Source: Loxodes magnus (taxonomy: Eukaryota > Ciliophora > Karyorelictea > Loxodida > Loxodidae). From it: 64,000 bases of DNA. Where the stretch lies: the NCBI GenBank assembly GCA_946699065.1, contig CAMPDV010000916.1:1-64000 (forward strand), written 5' to 3'. Each line of letters opens with the position of its first letter. The stretch's first letter is position 1. The notes beneath the pieces are model-generated. The model worked only from the letters and a program-made list of their open reading frames with translations, did no database searches and was not told where the DNA came from. The translations under genes were made by a program, and so were the position numbers. Shown piece by piece: positions 9,001-64,000 of the stretch.

Positions 9001-12000
9001 TATTTATTTTTTGTTAATTTTAGCTTTAAAATTAAGATTAAGCTTCAAGAAATGCCTAAAATATATATAAAACTAAATGAACTAGCCCTCTGATTCAATT
9101 AATTACTTAGCAAAACTAACTTAGCACTCAAATTAAGAACTCAACTAGCGTCTCTCATAAGCCATGCTCTACTATTACCTCAGTACCCTGCATTCCATAT
9201 TATATAGCATTATCTTTAATCATTTTACTTTACTACCATACTTCAAAGGCTGCATTTTAGCAAAGCAGGTTTATTCTGCATTTAGTAAGTAAAAGACATT
9301 TGACATCACTTAGACTGCTTTCTTATAAGGGTTAGTTCCTTTTTTAAAAAGCTTATTATAGCCTAAAAGACAAAAATGATGCTGAATTCTTATATTCGTC
9401 TAAGAAGAAACAGCTTAGACAATATAGCATAAACATAAGTCTTAATAGACAGAAATTTGAAAGGTTAAGCAAGCTTATTTATTAATGGTTAGATTAATAT
9501 ATAGGTAAAAGCATTTAAAAAGAGACTAGTAACAGCATTATATAACGCTTTCATCAATATAAATAAGCATTAAGGTTGCGTACACTATTCAGATTGCTTG
9601 AGCAATTAAAGCTAGATTAAGTAAATTGAAGGGTCAGCTTAAGCTATTATATTAGAAACAAAGCAGCTGATAATTAAGCAAATCTTTAATAATTAGCTTA
9701 AATAATTTTAGCATAGTAATTAAATGCAAAACTAGAGGGAGGGATACAAGCTAGAGTAGCAAGCAGATTAAGAAAAAAACATCTTATATGTAAAGAAGAT
9801 AATTTGAAAGATTGTAGGAGAAAAGGAATAAATAAATAAGAATTTTAATTTTAGCATTCAATAGAAGTTTAGCTAAATAGTACCAAGAACACAAACAAGT
9901 ACTTGATTTTTATATTTAGTTTGAGTAAAAAGATACAGAATTAAATTATAAAATGAAGATATCCTTTTATAAGTTGCTAAATTCAAAAATATCTTTAAAT
10001 GATACATAAATAGTTTTAAGAATGTTGATTCATGATAAAACTTATTTATCTTTTCTTACCTTATCAAATCAACTTAATACAAAAACTTCATTCTTTTGAG
10101 ACTCCCTTTAATACATTTTAACATTTCTGTTTCTAATTTTGTATACAGTTTCCTTTTTCTAAATAGCTTCTCTTTCATCTGCTTTATAAGTAATAGTATA
10201 TTAAATAGCCTCAAATATGCCATAATTCCGTTTGGAAGCTCCTCTTTTATATATTTTTCTTGGAGGGTTTATTACCCAACAATATTTAAAGATATTAATT
10301 AACTTAATATCAAAAAACCAGTTTAGTTTATCTGTTATAACCTTAGCATTAAAAATTTTATTTCATTTCTTAGATACAAATTAGAAAATCAATTTTTTGC
10401 TCTTAGGTAGTAATTTATAGCTTATTTAGCAAAGAATCCTAAAGACTCTTTGTATTTAATTTATTTATTATAGCCAAGCATTAACGACTCTTAATTAAAC
10501 TCTATTGATATATGCCTAATTTTAGAAGTTAAGCTAATTAAACTATTATTTCAGCCATTCTATTTAACTTTTAAAATTAAACTTGTTTATTTTAAACACT
10601 AAGGATAGTAAGCTTTATCTAGTAGCTTTTTCTAATTTTAATTCCCTGCTACTTGATTTAGGATTGATAATAATTCTGCTTATTGTTTTAGAGATTTAAT
10701 AATCTTTAGTTTAATATCTTTAGTAAATTATCTCTTAAGATCTTTCAGGCCAGATTAGATATTTCTTAGTTTATGATTTTGCTTATATGTTATGTTTATT
10801 TAGTTTAAGAGATACCAATCTTAGAGAGTTCTAACTTAGTTCAGGAATAGTATTTAAATCTTTTATTTCTGCATTTTATATTTTCTACACGAGGTATAAT
10901 CTCCAGCTATTGCACAGAAACACAAAGTATTCTGAGATTGCTTGTATTATTGCTAAGTTTAGCTTAGTATAATTTTGTCTTTGTTATTATATAGCTAATT
11001 ATTATTTTTGCTTATAACTTCATGCTATTCAATGTATTAAATGTATTCACTTAGAATTAAGAAAGCTTTTCTTAGTTATAAGCCTCACGTTCTTATTAAT
11101 TTCTAATATTCTCTAATAGCTTTACTAGAGTAAATATTTACTCTTGAGTATTTAGTTGCAAGTCTAAGATAATAGCTGTATTGATTAGCTTAGACTTGTA
11201 GTTTGGCTATTTTAGTAGATGTTGATGATAATCTTATTTAAAACTTGATTACAAGACTCTATTGGCTCTCTTTCTTATTCATATATTGCAGAAGTTTGTT
11301 GCTAGAATAAGCCTTGTTAGTAATGAACTAAAGCTGTATTGTAGCAATAATACCCCTTATGAATTAAGAGTATATTTGAATTATAAGGTAAAGTAGGATA
11401 AGAGTGATTAGATTAATAAGAGTATTTCTAGTAGACTGTTATTTAAACTAGGCTATTATAGTTATTTATCATTTAAATATCTATATCTATTATTCTTCTC
11501 TTTATCTTCTATCTTTAATATTCTCTATCTATAACTATCTATACTCTACTAAACTGTCACTGTTATTAAAAAGCTAAGCTTCTATATATAATTCTATAGT
11601 CTATTGCTGTCTATTAAATATAGCTAGTAAAAAGACCTGTATGTACTAAATAGTAGCTTTCAATTCTAAAAACTAATATAAAAGTATACTTTATTTATAC
11701 CAACAGATCATAAATACAATTAGCCGCTTCTTTTAAAATCCATACCTTAGACTTAAGCTTAGTTTCCTACAAAATACCAATCAACCAAATTTTAAGTTAA
11801 GATATTAATAAAGATTAAAAAAATGACTGTGCTAAGTAATGCTAATCACTAAAATAAACCTAATTGACTTTAATAAAACATAATCATAAGGAGCTAGTAA
11901 CTAAGCAAGAAGAAAATAAGTATTAGTTAATTAAAATCTAAATTATTAGAATGCTCTTATCTAAGGGTTACTAATAATACTATACCATATAATAGCTACT

Positions 12001-36356: not shown

Positions 36357-38091
36357 CTCATTTTTCATAATAAAATAATAAAAAAATTTCTATGCAATCT
36401 GCATATTTTTTTTATCGTCTTAAAGATAATTAAAAATTAAGAATTTAAATAAAGAAACTCTCCAACTAATTTCTAATTATCTTTAAATTAGTTGAAGGAT
36501 TACTAAAACTTTCAGAAATTTTGAAAAAATGAAATTTCAATATTTCAAATATTAGAATAATAATTCCAGTCCTTTGATTATTATAATCTAGTTCTAATCT
36601 AAAAATTCTTTATTTAATTATGAGGAAATGTTTTAGCTTTATTTTTAAATTTCAGAGTAAAAATTATATATTATTTTCCTTTTTTAAACTATGCTTAATC
36701 CTGATTATAATCTCTAGTTTGTTTAGTTGATAGTTTAATATTGCCTTAGTTTTATATTCTCAGTAAATTATAGTAAAGCAACATAAAATTTTTATAATTA
36801 TCTTCTAAAAGTTCTATAAATATAAAAAATTATGATTACAATAAGGTAAAATCTATACATTCCTTTTTTCATCATAAAAAGAAAATCAAAATCAGTTAGC
36901 ATAATAAACTTTCTTAAATTGATAGTTAAAAATCATACTAATATTAATTAATTACTTTGTTTATTAAATAATCTATTTCATTTTCTGGCGCTTTCTATAT
37001 TCTAAAAATAGCTTAAATATTTAAATTAAAAAATAAATGAATCATCTAGAAAATAGCAAAATATTCATTTTATATAAATCATTTATTACTAACTTTAACT
37101 TGTTATTCTTATCAATTTCTAATTAAGATATTATATCACCTGCTAAAATTTGAGAAATTATAATATTGCTTTGATTATCAATCACTAGAAAGAGAAAAAA
37201 ATGAGCAAGTTATAAGGATTTAAGACTAAAAAAAACAAGAAGAATATGATATTGAAACTTATTGAAGATTAAAGACTACTAAAATCTTTTTTACGTGACA
37301 ATCCTAATAATGGTAAAGTTATTTTATTATATTATTATGTGATAATTTTGCTCTACTCAAAAAAAAACTTTTAAGAAAAGAGTAATTTATAAAAATATAT
37401 TAGTAAATATTATCGAGTAAACTTCTTTTTTTAGATTCAATTTAACTTAATTTACAATCGTAAATAATAAAAATCCTTTAAACTCATATATTATTACTTC
37501 ATTATTCTAAATATAATTCTTTTTGAGAAATATAATAAATCGTATCAATAATCTAAATTTCATAAAATATTACTTAATTTAAATAAAAATTTGAAAATAT
37601 ATTATAAGAAAAAATTAAAATTAATTATTTGACCATAAATATGAACTTTGAAGAATATAAGTATATTATAAATATTAACTTTATTTATTATAAGTTAAAT
37701 TAATAATTTCAAATAAAAAAATTAGGCTTGCTTGAACCAAAAATTATGTTGCTTTTTTTTAATTATTTTGTACCCTTTGAATTAAAAAAATCCCATAAAA
37801 GTGACTCTGAAAATTCCTATAATTACGCTTTATTACCTTTATTCTTATTAAGTTAAATATTTTAAAATGATTATTTCTTATGAAATCTAATATAATATTG
37901 TGAAATTAAATTAAAAAATGTACTATTTTTTAATTTTATAATAGTAGATTTTATTTTTATCATAATTTATATCAAAAAAATTAACAACTCTTTTAAGGAA
38001 GATTTAATTATAACGTTAGCAAACATCTTTATATTTATTTATTTTTAACTAAGAAAAATATTGAATCTAAAAGGGTTAATTTTGTATATAT
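36357..38091. other. AT-rich spacer
   Basis: No feature recognised. Confidence 0.4.
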
Positions 38092-38702
38092 GGAAGCTCA
38101 CATTAAATTTGGAAGAATAAACTAAAAAGTTTCTAATCTTCATAAGACAACGAAACGACTTAAAAAGCTTAAAACATAATCTGTGAAGTTTTAAGCAAAT
38201 AATCAAAAAGAAATTTCTACTTCTTAATGGAGAGGCTAAGTAAATATTTTTACATGCTAAGAGAAAACTCTAAATCCTAAGAAAAGTAGTAATATGAACT
38301 TTAATAAAGAAATCAAAAATAAATTCATTAATTCATGGGAAAATTGCGTTTTTAGCAAGCATTCTAATCTAACTCAATAATAGAATAATCTTAGTAATTA
38401 AAAAATAGATAAAATAAACTGTAGTATTTAAGAAATTAAAGGTTGTCCACTCTTATATTTGTAAGGATTTGATTTTTTATCATAAAAGAAATTCTTAATG
38501 GAAAAGCAATTGATCAAGACAGGATAAAAGGTGAGTTTCCGAAATTTGGTGAATACCTATTGATAATTTTTCACTCTTTTCTGAATAATATGCTAAGACT
38601 TGGAAGATTTCCTCAGGAACTAAAGGCATTGGTTATATTTCCCAATAATTAAAAAAGAAAATAAAGATGATTGAAAAAACTGACTACCTATTTTTTTAGT
38701 AA
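38092..38702 (+). pseudogene. LINE ORF2 fragment, linker to start of reverse transcriptase
   Basis: This plus-strand island aligns along its length with the minus-strand LINE at 61,640-61,020. Shared peptide blocks include FGRINQ, MNFN.EIKNKFI, SWENCVF, LSNQKIDKI, IKEI.NGKA, FLNNMLRLGR and KDDWKNW. Several one-base indels force frame changes, and it lacks the endonuclease before it and the catalytic YADD-type motif after it. It is therefore a dead internal fragment. Both Trp of DDWKNW are TGA here (38,672 and 38,681), while the intact element has TGG then TGA, a direct TGG/TGA swap at one homologous codon. Confidence 0.8.
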
Positions 38703-51965: not shown

Positions 51966-52609
51966 TATAATATACTAAAATTTAAATAATAGAAGCAAAT
52001 TAAAAGTATTTACCACTAGAAAATTTACATCAAACAAAAGATTTGAAACTTTAAATTTAATTGATACTTTTAATATATTTTCTATCCTTTATTTAAATCA
52101 ATTAGTTATTTTTGGTTTTTTAAGCTTTATAGCTGTAATTAATCTAATTTTTTTGATTAATAAAAATATAATATTAAATTAATATATTTTTAGAATTAAT
52201 TTATAGGATTTCCAGTAACTATTTAAAATATTATTTCTTAATCTAATGATAATTATAAGTTTTAATATAAAAATTATAAATTTCTAAATATTAAAAAAAA
52301 GGTTTTAGAATGAAAAACTTTAAAAAACTAATTAATTTTTAAATTAGTAAAATAAAAGACAGCAAAATTCTTAAAATTGTCTTATATTAAATAAGAAAAA
52401 TTATGTTAATTATGTTTTTAATTTTTTGTTTATAAAGAAAAGTTTAAAGTTTTAGATAATAGAAATATGAATTTTTATATTAATAATTATTTTTCCTAAT
52501 ATTTCTAATGTGTTTTTTTTGAAAATAATTGAATTACTTTTAAGTTGCTTTTTTATAAGTTTAATTATTTTAATTTTTAATTAAATAATAATAATATTAA
52601 TTTTGAGTT
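51966..52609. other. AT-rich spacer
   Basis: No feature recognised. It includes the A/T tail after the ORF1 element to the right. Confidence 0.4.
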
Positions 52610-53549
52610 TTCCGTTTTAGGGATTTTCAACCCCGTCAGGAGGACAGCGGTTCATGCTCCCTGCTGTTAAATATAAAAGTTGGGGTCGCCCAATTTTAGC
52701 GAGATTGGGAACTCGGATTTTTCCAGGTTTTCCTTCCTTTTACTTGGTATGGTTCCATGTTGATCTTGTATACTGAACCATCCGGGTTACAATACATTCT
52801 TTTCATTTTTGCTTCTTCTTTTTCCTTCTTTTGTTGCTCTTTTATCAAATAGTTTCTTTATTTCTATTAGAATTTCTAACACTTCCAATAAAAATGTCAT
52901 ACGCTTCCACAGCAGAAACATTTCTTTTTTATTTTGAATTATTTTCCTTGATTTGTTTGCTCTTTCTAGACTTCAATTTCCATTTGTATAGCTCCAGTTT
53001 CGCTTTACTCTTTCTTAAAAGTTTACAGTTTCTCTTCTACTTTTCAGAGTCTGTTATCCAGTTCAGTCTGTTTCTAAAGCTAATTTTAGGATTCGTTAGT
53101 CTGACTTTGGGAGATATTCCAAAAAGCGTTAAAATCTCTTTCCTAGGACATAAGTCTTGACTCAATTCCTTCTGCTAGGTCTAGCTTTGCCATCAGCATA
53201 TAATTGTCCTTCTTCAATCTCTTGACCTCTTCCTGGAGGTTCAGTACCACTTTGATAAACTACTCTATGCTCATCTGGTCAGAAGGGTTAAACTCTGATA
53301 CCTCCTGGTGGAGAACAGACTTCATCTATTTCCTCGGTTTCTCGCTTGAGGTTGGAGTTTCCGTGTATATTCTTAATTGGCTTTCGTTCGTTTTGTTAGA
53401 TTCCAAGTTGTTAGTTCAGTGTTGGTTAAGGTTGTGATAGAGAAGATTGTTAAGATTATTAAGACTTGGTTTCTTGCTTCCTCCCTTCCTTTTTGGCTTA
53501 GGAAGAGGAGGTATAGAAGCCTGACTTGAAACTTGAAACTTGAAACCAT
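52610..53549 (-). CDS. LINE ORF1 protein with complete CCHC zinc knuckle
   Basis: This is the best ORF1 copy. One frame covers a basic, Pro-rich N-terminus (IPPLPKPKRKGGSKK), the family signature EVSEFNPSDQMSIEQF, a coiled coil (LNLQEEVKRLKKDN), MSQERDFNAFWNI, a perfect CX2CX4HX4C knuckle (CFCCGSVWHFYWKC) near 52,915-52,880, a Lys/Glu helix (KEQQKKEKEEAKMKR) and a Trp-rich tail (GRKTWKNPSSQSRQNW). TAA/TAG read as Gln and TGA as Trp (QHW, RLW, SVW). It would bind element RNA. The only ATG near the start (53,549-53,547) is out of frame because of a three-unit heptamer repeat; four units would restore the frame. The 3' end coincides with that of the 26-kb copy, and no ORF2 follows. GC is higher than in its neighbours, so it may be the youngest insertion. 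Confidence 0.75.
53526..53546. repeat. Three heptamers at the start of ORF1
   Basis: Three exact copies of GTTTCAA (minus strand) directly follow the candidate ATG of the ORF1 copy. Seven is not a multiple of three, so unit number sets whether the ATG is in frame. With three units it is not. Confidence 0.75.
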
Positions 53550-58075: not shown

Positions 58076-59218
58076 TTACTTATCTTATCTTAACCTATTT
58101 TATTAAAAATAACTGCATTATCAGACACCTAGATTAGATATAAATTAATTTAATGGATCATTTTTTTACTATCACTTCTTTAGTTTTTATCATTGAATAA
58201 AAAAAGAATTGGATAATACAGCAATATAAATAATTTACTTAAAGGGTACTTTATGAAATTTGTAAAAGTTAAAAAATAATGATAAAATTGTTGAAATCAA
58301 GAATTCTTATTGGATAAATATTATAAAATTAATTACTAATTGATTAACCAAAATACTAAACATTTTTTGAGTATAATTTATTTTAATTTCTAAAAAGAAT
58401 TTAGTTTTTAATTGCTCAAAAATTATACGTTTCATAGTTCTAAATCTTGTTCTTAATGAATTAGTTATAAAATAAAAAAATGGAGATTTAAATAGAAGAT
58501 AAATAAAGTTTTTTATTATTTTAATTATATAATACGAATTCTTTTTATATTGCTGATTAAAAGTTTCATGTTCTATAAAAGAGTTTTACTTAGAATTTTT
58601 TATTTAAAAAATAAATATAAATAACTGAAAATTTTACTATAAATTATCAGGAATTTAAAAAACATTAAATGATATACTTTAGGAAACATTTTTAATTTAT
58701 TTATTTTGAAAAGAATTCATTTATTAAACAAAATTTTATCCTTTTCTAATTAAAAATTAAGCATATTATAATAATAAAAACTAATTAGTTTAGAATCTTT
58801 AGTACATCTAGAAAATTTTTCGTTAGAAAAGAAATTAACTTTTCAATTTCTGAGATTAAATTCAATATTCCAATTAAAAAAATAGCACTAAATATTTAAG
58901 AAATATGTTAATTGTTTTATCTTTAAAACTATTTTTTTATATAGTAAAAATTTAATTTATACTTATTAAAACAATTACAACTTCAAATATTATAAGTTAT
59001 TTATTTAACACATAGAGAAACATATTTTTGTGACTTTTTCTGTTTAAAAATTCATTATTCACAAGATAATGAATTCTAATAATTTATCTCATTAAAATTT
59101 AAATTAAATTAAATTTAAACTAAAAGAGTTTTTTGACGTCTTTAATTGCAAGAATTGCTTCTTTCAATTATAGACGTTAGTAAATGTTTTTAAATAGTTT
59201 TTTAATCTTGTTTGCATC
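58076..59218. other. AT-rich spacer, includes LINE 3' flank
   Basis: The right end (about 59,000-59,218) is the sequence downstream of the minus-strand LINE and may hold its 3' untranslated part. Otherwise no feature. Confidence 0.4.
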
Positions 59219-62200
59219 TCATCATTTTTCTTTAATTAGTTCTTCTTTCTATTCATCTTTAGCTTCTTCCTTTTTTGCTTTCTCCATTTCTAGAATCTCA
59301 AGTCTCCTTGTCATTAGCTTCTTATGAAATATTTTGATCTATAAGTCTAAATACTCCAATTTAGACCTTGAAAATGAGTTTAGATATTCTTGATCGTATA
59401 GTATAAGGCGCCTTAAGTCATAATTTCCGATATTTTCCGATAATCAATTCATTATATTAGAATAGTACACACATTTAAAGATATGCTCGAAAGTTTCATA
59501 CTCTCCACACATACAATAGGGATTATCAATGGGGTAATGTCGATCTTAAAGATCCTTACGGAAATTATAAGTTTAGGTTCTAAGTTTATATATACTGATA
59601 ATTTCTCGTCTATACTATTTGTTTAATTTAGTATAAGTAATTTGTGGAAATTGTTAAAGATTACCAAATTATTCAGTATATACTCTAGCTGTTTTCATCC
59701 TCATAAATTTTTTAGTAGCTACTTTGTAGAAATATTGTTGTATTTTTTCTCTTACATGTTTAGTAAAAGTTTTAAGATTGGTATTATTCTATTAATTCTG
59801 CAGATCGATATTATAAAGGTCTGATAATTGCTACACTTAATCGTAGTATTGAAATCCTTTTTTCCATATATTAATGAAAAGAGAGCCTATTGTTGATCTT
59901 GGAAAATCAGTACTTTCTTATTTAATTTTATGGTAGAATCTGAAGAATTTTATAGCCATAATGTGCTTAAAGGGTAATCAATTCAGGTCTATATAACATG
60001 ATTCATTAAATGTTGAAGTTGCTACTTAAAAAGCTTTTCTTGAAATTAATCTCATGCTTGATTCTATTCTGTTCAGAACTCCAGTTACTCCTTTTTGAAT
60101 ACTTCATGGTACTAAGTCTCCTCCATATTCTGCTTTAGGTAATGTAAAAAGTCTACATAAAGTTTTAAAATGTCAAGGAGTTACATTCTTATATCTCATC
60201 AGTTAAAAAACAGCTTTCTTCATTGCAGCTATATACTTGAATGCAGTTTCTTTGCAATGGGGATTTAAGTTCTTCTTCTAATGTAGAATAACTCCTAAAT
60301 ATGTTACTTGTTCTTTTTAAGCAATTGGCTAATTTCCTAATCATAAATTTAAAATTTATTATTTCTGATTCTTCTTTAGAAATTAGATGCATTCAGATTT
60401 GGTAACATTAATCTTTAAATGTGTTCATGCAAAAACTTTATTTGCTTCATTTATTAAATTCTACATCTACTTTGCAGATTTGGAAAGAAGAATAAGATCA
60501 TCTGCCCATCCTCTACAAGCGAAGCTAATACTTGAATCCTGGCATTTAAATCCCAATTAGTTACTTTTACTTTCCAGATATCTAATTACTATGTCATAAT
60601 ACAATAATGCTAAAACTGGTCCATGAGAACTTCCTTACATAACTCCATTGTTGAACTATAAAGTTCTGGTGCTCTTACCATCTATGATAAATGAAGAATT
60701 TAGGTTTTTATAAAACGATTCTAAAGCTATTATTATTCCAAGTGGTAGTTTAACTCTCTTAAGTTAATCAAACAAGAGTCTTCTTTCTATTGAGTCAAAC
60801 ATTTTTTCAACGTCTATCAGTGTTGCTATCAATTTAGTCTTACCTTTAGCACATTTCCGATAGTTATCAATTATTTGTTATATTATTCAAATTTATTAAG
60901 TTGTTTATCTGTTTTTCATAAATCCCATTTATGAAGGGTGAATCAAATTTCTCTAATAAATCAGATTGTATAGTCTTTTTGTTAAAGCTTTATCATATAG
61001 TTTTAGAATAGTATTAATAAGAGAAATAGGTCGTCAGTTTTTCCAATCATCTTTATTTCCTTTTTTAAATATTGGAATTATCACCGATATATTTAATTCC
61101 TAAGGGATTCTTCCAAGTCTTAGCATATTATTCAGAAAAGAATGAAGAATTATTAATAAATATTATCCACCATATTTCAGAAGTTCGCCTTTTATTCCAT
61201 CTGGACCAGCTGCTTTTCCATTCGGAATTTCTTTTATAATTTCTTATATTTCTTTTATGGTAAAAAGATCAAATCCTTACAAATACGAGAGTGGATAATC
61301 TTTAATTTCTTAAATATTATCGTATATTTTATCTATTTTTTAATTACTAAGATTTATTTATTCTTGAGTTAGATTATAATGCTTGTTAAAAACACAATTT
61401 TCCCATGATTCAATGAATTTATTTTTGATTTCTTAATTAAAGTTCATAGTATTTCTCTTCAAAGGATTTAGAATTTTCTTAGCCTGTGAAAAAATTTCCC
61501 TAGAATTTCCATTAAGAAGTAGAAATTTCTTTTTTGCTTTATTTTTTTTAAATTTTCATAGATTATACTTGAAGTCTTTCCAAAGTCGTTTTGCTTCCTC
61601 ATGAAGATTAGTTACTTGCTAGTTTATTCTTCCAAATCTTACGTGAGCTTCCTTATATTCTGAGTTAGTTCTTTTTGCCTCTATATATTTCTTTGTGAGA
61701 GCTCGAGGAAGTTTGTTATAATTTGAATCTGGAATAAAAGAACCTAATGTTTGATCAGCATTGTCTTAAATATTACTTTTGATGCATTCATATTAATCTT
61801 CAAGATTATCTTAATCTATTTAAAAGAATTCTAGATAAGTTTGTAGGAAAGATTCTTAATATTTTTATCTATCTATTGCATCTTATAACCTATTTATTTT
61901 ATATTTTCTCTGAGTTATCTTTTCCCAATATACTATAGAATTATTGATAAAGTCGACAGTGATTGGAATATGATCAGAAAATAAACTATTATTATGAGCA
62001 GTGAAATTTGCAAACTAATTAACGTTCAAATGGTTGTTTATAATGATATAATCATTACAATACGTTTTTCCTGTTCCTTTGTGAATACATGTATTAATGT
62101 TGCTATCATTCACTATCTCAAGATCGTTTTATAGTAAGAATTCTTATAGTCTAATGTTATTATCATAAGCATTTTCAGGATTATCACCGAAGCCTTATAA

Positions 62201-64000
62201 AAGAGCATTGAAATCTCCCATTAGTATATGTGGATTATCATTATATAAATTCAGCAATGTATTTAGTTGTTCATAAGCTAAATCTTTAACATCTTAACTT
62301 TTTCCATTATCAGGCATGTAACAAGACGTGATTAAAATATTATCCAGTTTAATTGTTATGAATCTATTTATTTCTTTTTCAACTTATATATGTATTTCTG
62401 TACTATTAAATTCTTCTCCTACAATTAAGCATACACCTCCTCCTTTTCCTGAGTTCTTAAAATATGTTTTAAATCCATTTATCAATATTGGAGGAAAGTC
62501 ATCTTTTTATCAGGTTTCGTTTATTGATAAAATATCTATACTGTTATCTCTGATAAATTCTTCAATATTCAAGCACTTGCTCGCTATTCCATTAATATTT
62601 ATATGTCCCATCTTTATTTTTTAAATTTATTAGTCCTTTCTAATTTTTTCCGAGCCTGCAGATAGACCACTTTCGTAAATGCAAATGCTTTTCTATCCTT
62701 ATTGGTTAATCTAAATATGTACTAATCTTTTTCCATACTCAGGATGTTAATGAAAATATTGTATCAAAATATATATTACTTACGTCGTATATTTTTTAAG
62801 TAGCTTTCTATCTATATCAATTTTACTTTTCACACTATCACATGTACCTTATTCTAAATCTTAAGTAACTGTGACATATCTACCTTATATATTGTGCATT
62901 TCGTACTATGGACGTCTTCAAGTTTCGGATTTAATAAACTTTTAAAGTTATAGACTAGTCAGATTGAAATAACATATTATTTAATCGCACTCTTTTTTAT
63001 TATTATGTTTACTCATACGTTTTGCTGGCGGAATTGTTTTATCTTCTTCTTCATGTTTCCTTTTAAGAATATTAAGATTAATATTGGAAGATAAGGTTTA
63101 ATTCTGATAAATAGCATCGATCGAATCTGTTTAGTTTTATTAATCTTTTTTTCATCTTTTAGTAGAATAATTAAATATATCTTTTTTCAAATTTTAATTA
63201 AGTTTTTAAAACTCTTCTATTTTTATCTCAAGTGTCTACATATTTTGGGTACTTTAAATGAATTTTAAGTTGAGTTAGTGATATTAATGCTATAGTAAAA
63301 CAAAATCTTCATCTGGCAATTTTATTTGACAGTATTAGTTATTATGTTATGTTATAATAGTATTAGTTTATGCTTCCTATTAATTATTTTAAGTTTACAT
63401 TAACTTGTCTTGCTTGATTATATTTGTTTGAGTAAATTTTTGACACAAAAAAGCTGTTTATTATTTATTTATATTATCTGTTTAGATAATACTATCCTTT
63501 GTTTAAATATTTCCATATAATGTCTAAGTTTATGCATCTACAAATTACTTCTTCTAAAATTACTATTAATTACTGAATTCTTTTGTATGTTAGATTTAAT
63601 TCTAAAATAATTCTTTATACATTTGAATTTCCTTATTTTTTAATAGAATTTAATTTTGAAAAGCTATATTTATTTCATATTTTTATTATCTTTACTTATC
63701 TAATTCGATTTTAAAAGTTAAAATTTCCATTTAAGCTTTCTATTTTTAATCTATAAATTACTTATTTTAGTTTTATAATTTTTAATATTAAGAATATAAC
63801 TCTTGGAGTTAAATTTCGTTTATTATTTTTTATTAGGTAATTTGTTGAAGTAAATATTAGTTCTATTCTAATATAGTCTATTGATATCCTTGTTAAGTTT
63901 TATTTAGAAAGTTATCTATTTCAATTTAAGTAAAATTTTTAATTTTATTAAAGTTTTGGCATAGTGAATTATTTGCTCCTATCATTTAAGCTTAAGTAAA
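59219..64000 (-). CDS. Non-LTR retrotransposon (LINE) polyprotein: endonuclease and reverse transcriptase, runs off right edge
   Basis: With TAA/TAG as Gln and TGA as Trp, one frame runs from the window edge to a TGATGA at 59,224-59,219 without a frameshift. The first part (64,000 to about 62,620) is Gln/Asn-rich with coiled-coil stretches (IKIEEFQKLNQNLKKDI). An endonuclease follows (ATG at 62,611): HININGIASKCLN, INETW, MGDFNAL, SDHIPITVDF. The reverse transcriptase has NGKAAGPDGIKGELL, NWRPISLIN, GFMKNR, LIDVEKMFDSI, VMQGSSHGPVLALLYYD, GWADDLILLS (catalytic Asp pair) and VTYLGVIL. A zinc motif, CMCGEYETFEHIFKC, lies at 59,515-59,471, followed by a charged tail. These enzymes nick DNA and copy element RNA at the break. 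About a dozen in-frame TGA and about half as many TGG were counted from 62,611 on. It looks intact and possibly active. Upstream of 62,611 the start codon is uncertain; in-frame ATGs exist at 63,400 and near the edge. Confidence 0.88.

Follow-up and report, generated by a model that had tools for sequence, protein, structure and literature searches.

A long interspersed nuclear element that uses the known context-dependent genetic code of its host, a karyorelict ciliate and most likely Loxodes magnus

In NCBI genetic code table 27, UAA and UAG encode Gln, and UGA means Trp or stop depending on the context. The Loxodes magnus genome paper presents a macronuclear assembly of 706 Mbp and assigns this code to it. 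It describes 3′ untranslated regions (UTRs) with a median length of 41 bp, UGA and UAA codons that are depleted ahead of the stop, and two families of long interspersed nuclear elements (LINEs) of 5–6 kb, each numbering about 3,000 copies. For the karyorelict code, a depletion of UGA over about 20 codons ahead of the stop has been described, and a tRNA-Trp(CCA) with a 4-bp anticodon stem is stated for Loxodes by two papers, both citing other work. These statements and the comparisons with published systems made below draw on five papers (PMC11441545, PMC4967479, PMC12153298, PMC13092985 and PMC12005148). Here, we analysed a 64,000-nucleotide stretch of DNA (the window), in which positions 64000–59219 on the minus strand carry a LINE frame that an earlier, sequence-only reading had interpreted as evidence that all three standard stop codons behave as sense codons. 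We conclude, with a probability of about 95%, that this part of the window holds most of a young endonuclease-type LINE present in multiple copies, and that the element follows the known context-dependent code (table 27) of its host, a karyorelict ciliate and most likely Loxodes magnus. Because both this code and the Loxodes magnus genome have been described, the observation is correct but already known, and our analysis is a confirmation; the LINE is nothing special in being written in the code of its host.

Positions 64000–59219 form a protein-like frame of 1,592 codons, closed by two adjacent TGA codons, only when TAA and TAG are read as Gln and TGA as Trp, as the sequence-only reading had stated for more than 1,100 codons. 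Endonuclease and reverse transcriptase domains were identified in the frame using Pfam. The frame contains 14 TGA codons, of which 12 are internal and two form the terminal pair, together with 6 TGG, 97 TAA, 27 TAG, 30 CAA and 6 CAG codons; the remaining five frames of the same stretch contain 19–45 TGAs each. The four motifs in which TGA had been pointed out (NET-TGA, DWKN-TGA-RPISL, LVP-TGA-S and DLN-TGA-LP) are all present, as are the TGG codons in VYWEK (codon 692) and GWADD (codon 1165). In the whole-genome search, the window was placed at positions 1–64000 of contig C916. The frame starts at an ATG at position 65137 of this contig, approximately 1.1 kb outside the window, and comprises 1,971 codons followed by TGA-TGA, a length that is identical in all eight loci read. 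In its full length, the window copy contains 12 internal TGA, 7 TGG, 124 TAA, 40 TAG, 44 CAA and 9 CAG codons. The two domains reside in one element, which spans from about 65,137 to about 59,109 of the contig. Target-site duplications of 15–18 bases flank the element in seven of the eight loci; the window copy is the locus in which none was found.

Since the relatives of the LINE proved too distant to single out Trp, Prp8 was used instead. The genome contains one match to the PROCN domain of this protein, in which 5 TGA, 2 TAG and 12 TAA codons are present. With all three stop codons set to X, the locus (L073) aligned without a change of frame between 2601 and 9401. When the TGA and TGG codons were counted by eye against the best-matching chain for each of four pieces (9r8v, 6zym, 6zym and 8xi2), 15 of the 18 aligned internal TGAs were found opposite Trp, two opposite Tyr (8718 and 9120) and one opposite Ala (9174), and the TGG control behaved similarly (40 of 44 opposite Trp, three opposite Tyr and one opposite His). 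The chance of at least 15 Trp residues among 18 TGAs is about 1e-21 if a Trp share of 60 in 2266 is assumed. A scripted check that covered about 1,200 codons, in the second and third of these pieces, yielded Trp opposite 7 of 7 TGA and 28 of 29 TGG codons, and Gln opposite 24 of 31 TAA and 6 of 7 TAG codons (30 of 38 together), the control values for Gln being 11 of 16 for CAA and 3 of 4 for CAG (14 of 20 together). The assignment of TAA and TAG to Gln and of TGA to Trp is borne out by this gene. Of the Trp codons in the LINE, 12 of 19 are TGA, a larger share than the 18 of 62 counted in the aligned region of Prp8 (p about 0.01); this difference concerns these two frames only.

TGA also occurs where genes end. 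In Prp8, yeast chains align up to the last queried codon, six codons ahead of the TGA at position 9417 of the locus, and the last internal TGA lies 81 codons before it. Both of the eRF1 genes, each of which contains four TGG codons and no internal TGA, end with DEDFL-TGA, and their alignment to solved chains stops four codons earlier. The corresponding distance in the LINE is given in Table 1, and these spacings come from a few genes only. Taken together, the comparisons indicate that inside genes UAA and UAG occupy Gln sites and UGA occupies Trp sites, and that UGA is found at gene ends as well. Judged from the position of the C-terminus, which is the evidence on stop use in Prp8, the two eRF1 genes and the LINE, TGA appears to retain its stop meaning at these four ends. 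This is a refinement of the original observation: the statement that all three stop codons are sense codons holds inside genes, and TGA additionally serves as the stop. The LINE stop is located about 110 bases from the end of the element, a distance longer than the published median of the host 3′-UTRs. In addition, a second in-frame TGA is present three codons past the stop in both eRF1 genes (L040 and L041, after position 2763), resembling the doubled TGA of the LINE, and it may possibly be a backup stop.

A search of the genome with a tRNA-Trp pattern (anticodon CCA or UCA) yielded 133 places, compared with 18 in the reversed control. Among the 100 matches listed, 48 are on contig C67, 48 on contig C148 and one on contig C110; the three other places were not tRNAs according to ARAGORN. 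In the C67 array (C67:482323-491201, L045), 34 copies were read, of which 33 are identical and one has a different D arm; the anticodon arm is ATCGA-CTCCAGA-TCGAC, and its outer pair, A27.C43, is mismatched in all 34. The C148 array (at least C148:155464-168457, L086) has TTCGA-CTCCAGA-TCGAC in both copies read, in which the outer pair is again mismatched (U27.C43). A dispersed tRNA-Trp(CCA) gene (C110:470077-470148, L080), by comparison, has a paired U27-A43 and a full 5-bp stem. The tRNA-Trp with anticodon UCA that had been suggested as a check was not found with the pattern used, which would miss genes that do not fit it (207 places in a looser search and 310 in the reversed control; none of the three examined was a tRNA); the CCA form with a mismatched stem was found instead. 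The idea that tRNA-Trp genes were amplified to adapt to the decoding of UGA was rejected because the same kind of pattern for tRNA-Cys gave 161 places (2 in the control). Beside this figure, the number of tRNA-Trp genes is ordinary, and as far as shown by the first 100 places listed for each, arraying alone sets tRNA-Trp apart from tRNA-Cys.

The preservation of the mismatch despite the base change between the two arrays (A27.C43 versus U27.C43) suggests that the open pair itself has been selected. A division of labour between two differently mismatched, selected arrays and a 5-bp partner reading only UGG may be imagined in Loxodes, but on these tRNA sequences we consider such an arrangement of three tRNA-Trp(CCA) forms tentative and rather unlikely. 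If it were true, the tRNA-Trp forms would constitute a natural control, within one genome, for the role of stem length in setting UGA decoding. The occurrence of two differently mismatched arrays alongside a normal 5-bp gene is possibly new; searches limited to open-licence papers did not turn up several tRNA-Trp stem forms in Loxodes, and no novelty is claimed.

Among four places examined from a search with a pattern for the anticodons UUA and CUA, L085 proved to be a tRNA whose anticodon is UUA and which looks Gln-like, L084 was called with an extended anticodon, and the other two were not called. Two tRNA-like sequences on contig C245 (L082 and L083) have CTA at the anticodon position and were not called by ARAGORN; they may be pseudogenes, and presumably resemble tRNA-Lys. 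The changes in eRF1 that the sequence-only reading had proposed to look for were found in the alignment with 1dt9 and include Ser70 to Ala, Glu55 to Ala, Ser60 to Gln, Thr58 to Arg and Tyr125 to Phe.

The codon identities at conserved sites, the stop positions and the sequences of the tRNAs and eRF1 were read directly from the DNA. The literature on related organisms supplies the reading of UGA by a 4-bp-stem tRNA, the weaker termination by an altered eRF1 and the favouring of termination close to the poly(A) tail. In such a mechanism, tRNA-Trp(CCA) with the mismatched top pair of the anticodon stem would be the main reader of UGA as Trp inside genes, and eRF1, altered at its stop-recognition residues, would compete poorly at internal UGA codons. 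Near the 3′ end of the mRNA and its poly(A) tail, termination would win, and UGA there would act as stop. UAA would be read by a tRNA such as that with the UUA anticodon.

If the host were Tetrahymena-like, with only TAA and TAG reassigned to Gln, the TGAs of the LINE would be nonsense mutations of a dead element. The LINE is repetitive, some copies (L074–L077 and L081 among those read) have decayed through frame shifts, and in distant LINEs a variety of residues stands opposite its TGA columns, all of which would fit this explanation. However, in a search of the whole assembly (705,730,643 bases), in which 29 matches were scored out of 22,992 first-look candidates, all 29 span residues 1–1592 of the query and each contains 11–13 TGA, 27–30 TAG and 94–97 TAA codons. 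Furthermore, the eight loci read all carry TGA at 11 of the 12 internal positions; the exception, codon 1220, is TAA in two of them. Past the first TGA, the variant codons of these eight copies are mostly synonymous (20 synonymous and 9 non-synonymous, whereas neutrality predicts 2.57 non-synonymous variants for each synonymous one; binomial probability, 5e-6). This substitution pattern, although drawn from a biased sample, backs selection on the frame as supporting evidence only. The explanation is refuted by Prp8, which has TGAs at conserved Trp sites and 18 internal TGAs in its aligned part, and is almost certainly wrong. For Prp8, the assignment of TGA to another residue such as Cys or selenocysteine, to which the TGT found at a TGA column in one decayed LINE copy might point, is likewise refuted: none of the 18 aligned TGAs is opposite Cys, compared with the 15 opposite Trp, and we give this assignment practically no credence.

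It is also conceivable that TGA is Trp in every context and that translation is ended by another signal, for example UAA. The many internal sites at which TGA is a sense codon are in line with this, and the terminal TGA of Prp8 is directly followed by TAA. Nevertheless, the frames of Prp8 and both eRF1 genes meet TGA within a few codons of the ends of homologous chains, no internal TGA is present in the last 73–80 codons of the LINE and Prp8, and the Loxodes magnus paper assigns UGA as the stop from poly-A-tailed transcripts. This possibility is very improbable, if slightly less so than the two preceding ones.

No observation contradicts the code of table 27, although the reading that we prefer, a LINE written in this context-dependent code, has several weak points. 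When the LINE was aligned with solved LINE proteins with TGA set to X, Trp was found opposite TGA only at column 989 (in the three R2 chains shown; LINE-1 has Phe), and the remaining TGA columns face a mixture of residues such as His, Arg/Lys, Ile and Leu. The claim that TGA falls where LINEs usually have Trp or another bulky residue is weaker than originally stated. TGG columns also lack Trp in LINE-1 and perform no better than TGA; this comparison does not settle which residue is encoded and was replaced by that with Prp8. Ahead of the first TGA, the same eight LINE copies differ by 10 synonymous and 12 non-synonymous variants, and because these copies are the best protein matches, their substitution ratio is biased toward few amino acid changes. 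In Prp8, whose start was not fixed, an additional in-frame TGA five codons before the aligned region was left out of the count. The sole internal TGA of Pelota is opposite Asn in 5lzw and Phe in 3mca, which brings the pooled host TGAs to 15 of 19 opposite Trp. Regarding the tRNAs, the gene on contig C110, with its paired U27-A43, is an exception to the open top pair of the other tRNA-Trp(CCA) genes read, the UUA/CUA pattern was not above its control (41 places versus 78), and no CUA tRNA was confirmed among the four places fetched. The main aligned stretches of the decayed copies (L074–L077 and L081) are 91–97% identical to the query protein, too similar to serve as a diverged family in which TGG/TGA swaps might be seen. 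No relatives of the LINE were confirmed in a search of genome contigs, and a scan of plasmids gave no match.

The features of the LINE are listed in Table 1. In L001–L008, the distance between the 5′ border and the ATG (about 65137 on the contig of the window) is nine shared bases, behind a run of A that varies. With the frame opening so close to the beginning of the element, no space is left for the usual 5′ untranslated promoter region. Elsewhere in the window, positions 38045–38701 (plus strand) contain a decayed LINE fragment that is 47% identical to LINE residues 768–995. A second retroelement candidate, at 52607–53431 (minus strand), is coding-like with TGAs and a CCHC-type motif (CFCCGSVWHFYWKC); this frame gave no match in Pfam and is possibly ORF1 of another retroelement. 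An Rfam scan of the window detected a single tRNA and nothing else.

Table 1. Features of the LINE in the window (codons of internal TGAs are numbered along the 1,592-residue window part of the frame, P0001)
Feature	Position	Strand	Evidence or remark
Window part of single LINE frame (codons 380–1973 of 1973)	59219..64000	-	Frame reading, genome matches; begins at C916 65137
Endonuclease domain (PF03372, residues 468–677; PF14529, residues 555–680 of P0001)	61961..62599	-	Pfam
Reverse transcriptase domain (PF00078, residues 982–1239 of P0001)	60284..61057	-	Pfam
Internal TGA, codon 283	63152..63154	-	TTA in decayed copy L076
Internal TGA, codon 361	62918..62920	-	Frame reading
Internal TGA, codon 497 (NET-TGA)	62510..62512	-	Opposite His in LINE-1
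Internal TGA, codon 815	61556..61558	-	TGT in decayed copy L076
Internal TGA, codon 989 (DWKN-TGA-RPISL)	61034..61036	-	Opposite Trp in the three R2 chains shown and opposite Phe in LINE-1
Internal TGA, codon 1038	60887..60889	-	Frame reading
Internal TGA, codon 1192	60425..60427	-	Frame reading
Internal TGA, codon 1220	60341..60343	-	TAA in L007, L008, L075 and L081
Internal TGA, codon 1276	60173..60175	-	Frame reading
Internal TGA, codon 1299 (LVP-TGA-S)	60104..60106	-	Frame reading
Internal TGA, codon 1341 (DLN-TGA-LP)	59978..59980	-	Frame reading
Last internal TGA, codon 1519	59444..59446	-	74 codons ahead of first terminal TGA
Terminal TGA-TGA, read as stop; no later in-frame TGA before element end	59219..59224	-	Reading of LINE loci
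LINE 3′ untranslated end, 110 bases, into TTTAA-type repeat	59109..59218	-	Locus comparison; at least 6 of 8 loci agreeing

In this study, an unusual genetic code was correctly recovered by a first reading of the raw sequence. The gain beyond the published code consists of confirmation and a few testable details. For Loxodes, these are a mobile element that throughout uses a code where no codon is only a stop, an essential gene, Prp8, in which all three reassignments can be seen together, and the occurrence of tRNA-Trp genes with 4-bp and with 5-bp stems in the same genome.

The placement among the karyorelicts, which had been offered as an inference, is likely as far as it can be tested; the published Loxodes magnus description includes table 27 and a matching LINE content. 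Compared with table 27 as described there for Loxodes and Parduczia, this DNA shows the same use of UAA and UAG for Gln and of UGA for Trp inside genes and stop at their ends, and no difference was found. The LINE resembles the published Loxodes magnus families, which are known here by description only, in its endonuclease and reverse transcriptase domains and the size range of 5–6 kb. Condylostoma magnum also translates all 64 codons, with a context-dependent stop and no tRNA-Trp(UCA) found there; its eRF1, however, is inferred to recognise all three stops, whereas in this DNA TGA closes the LINE and each of the three host genes whose end is legible. Blastocrithidia shares with this DNA a 4-bp-stem tRNA-Trp(CCA) and a change at Ser70 of eRF1. 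The two differ in the meaning of UAR (Glu in Blastocrithidia, Gln here), in the stop codon (UAA there, UGA here) and in the residue that replaces Ser70 (Gly there, Ala here).

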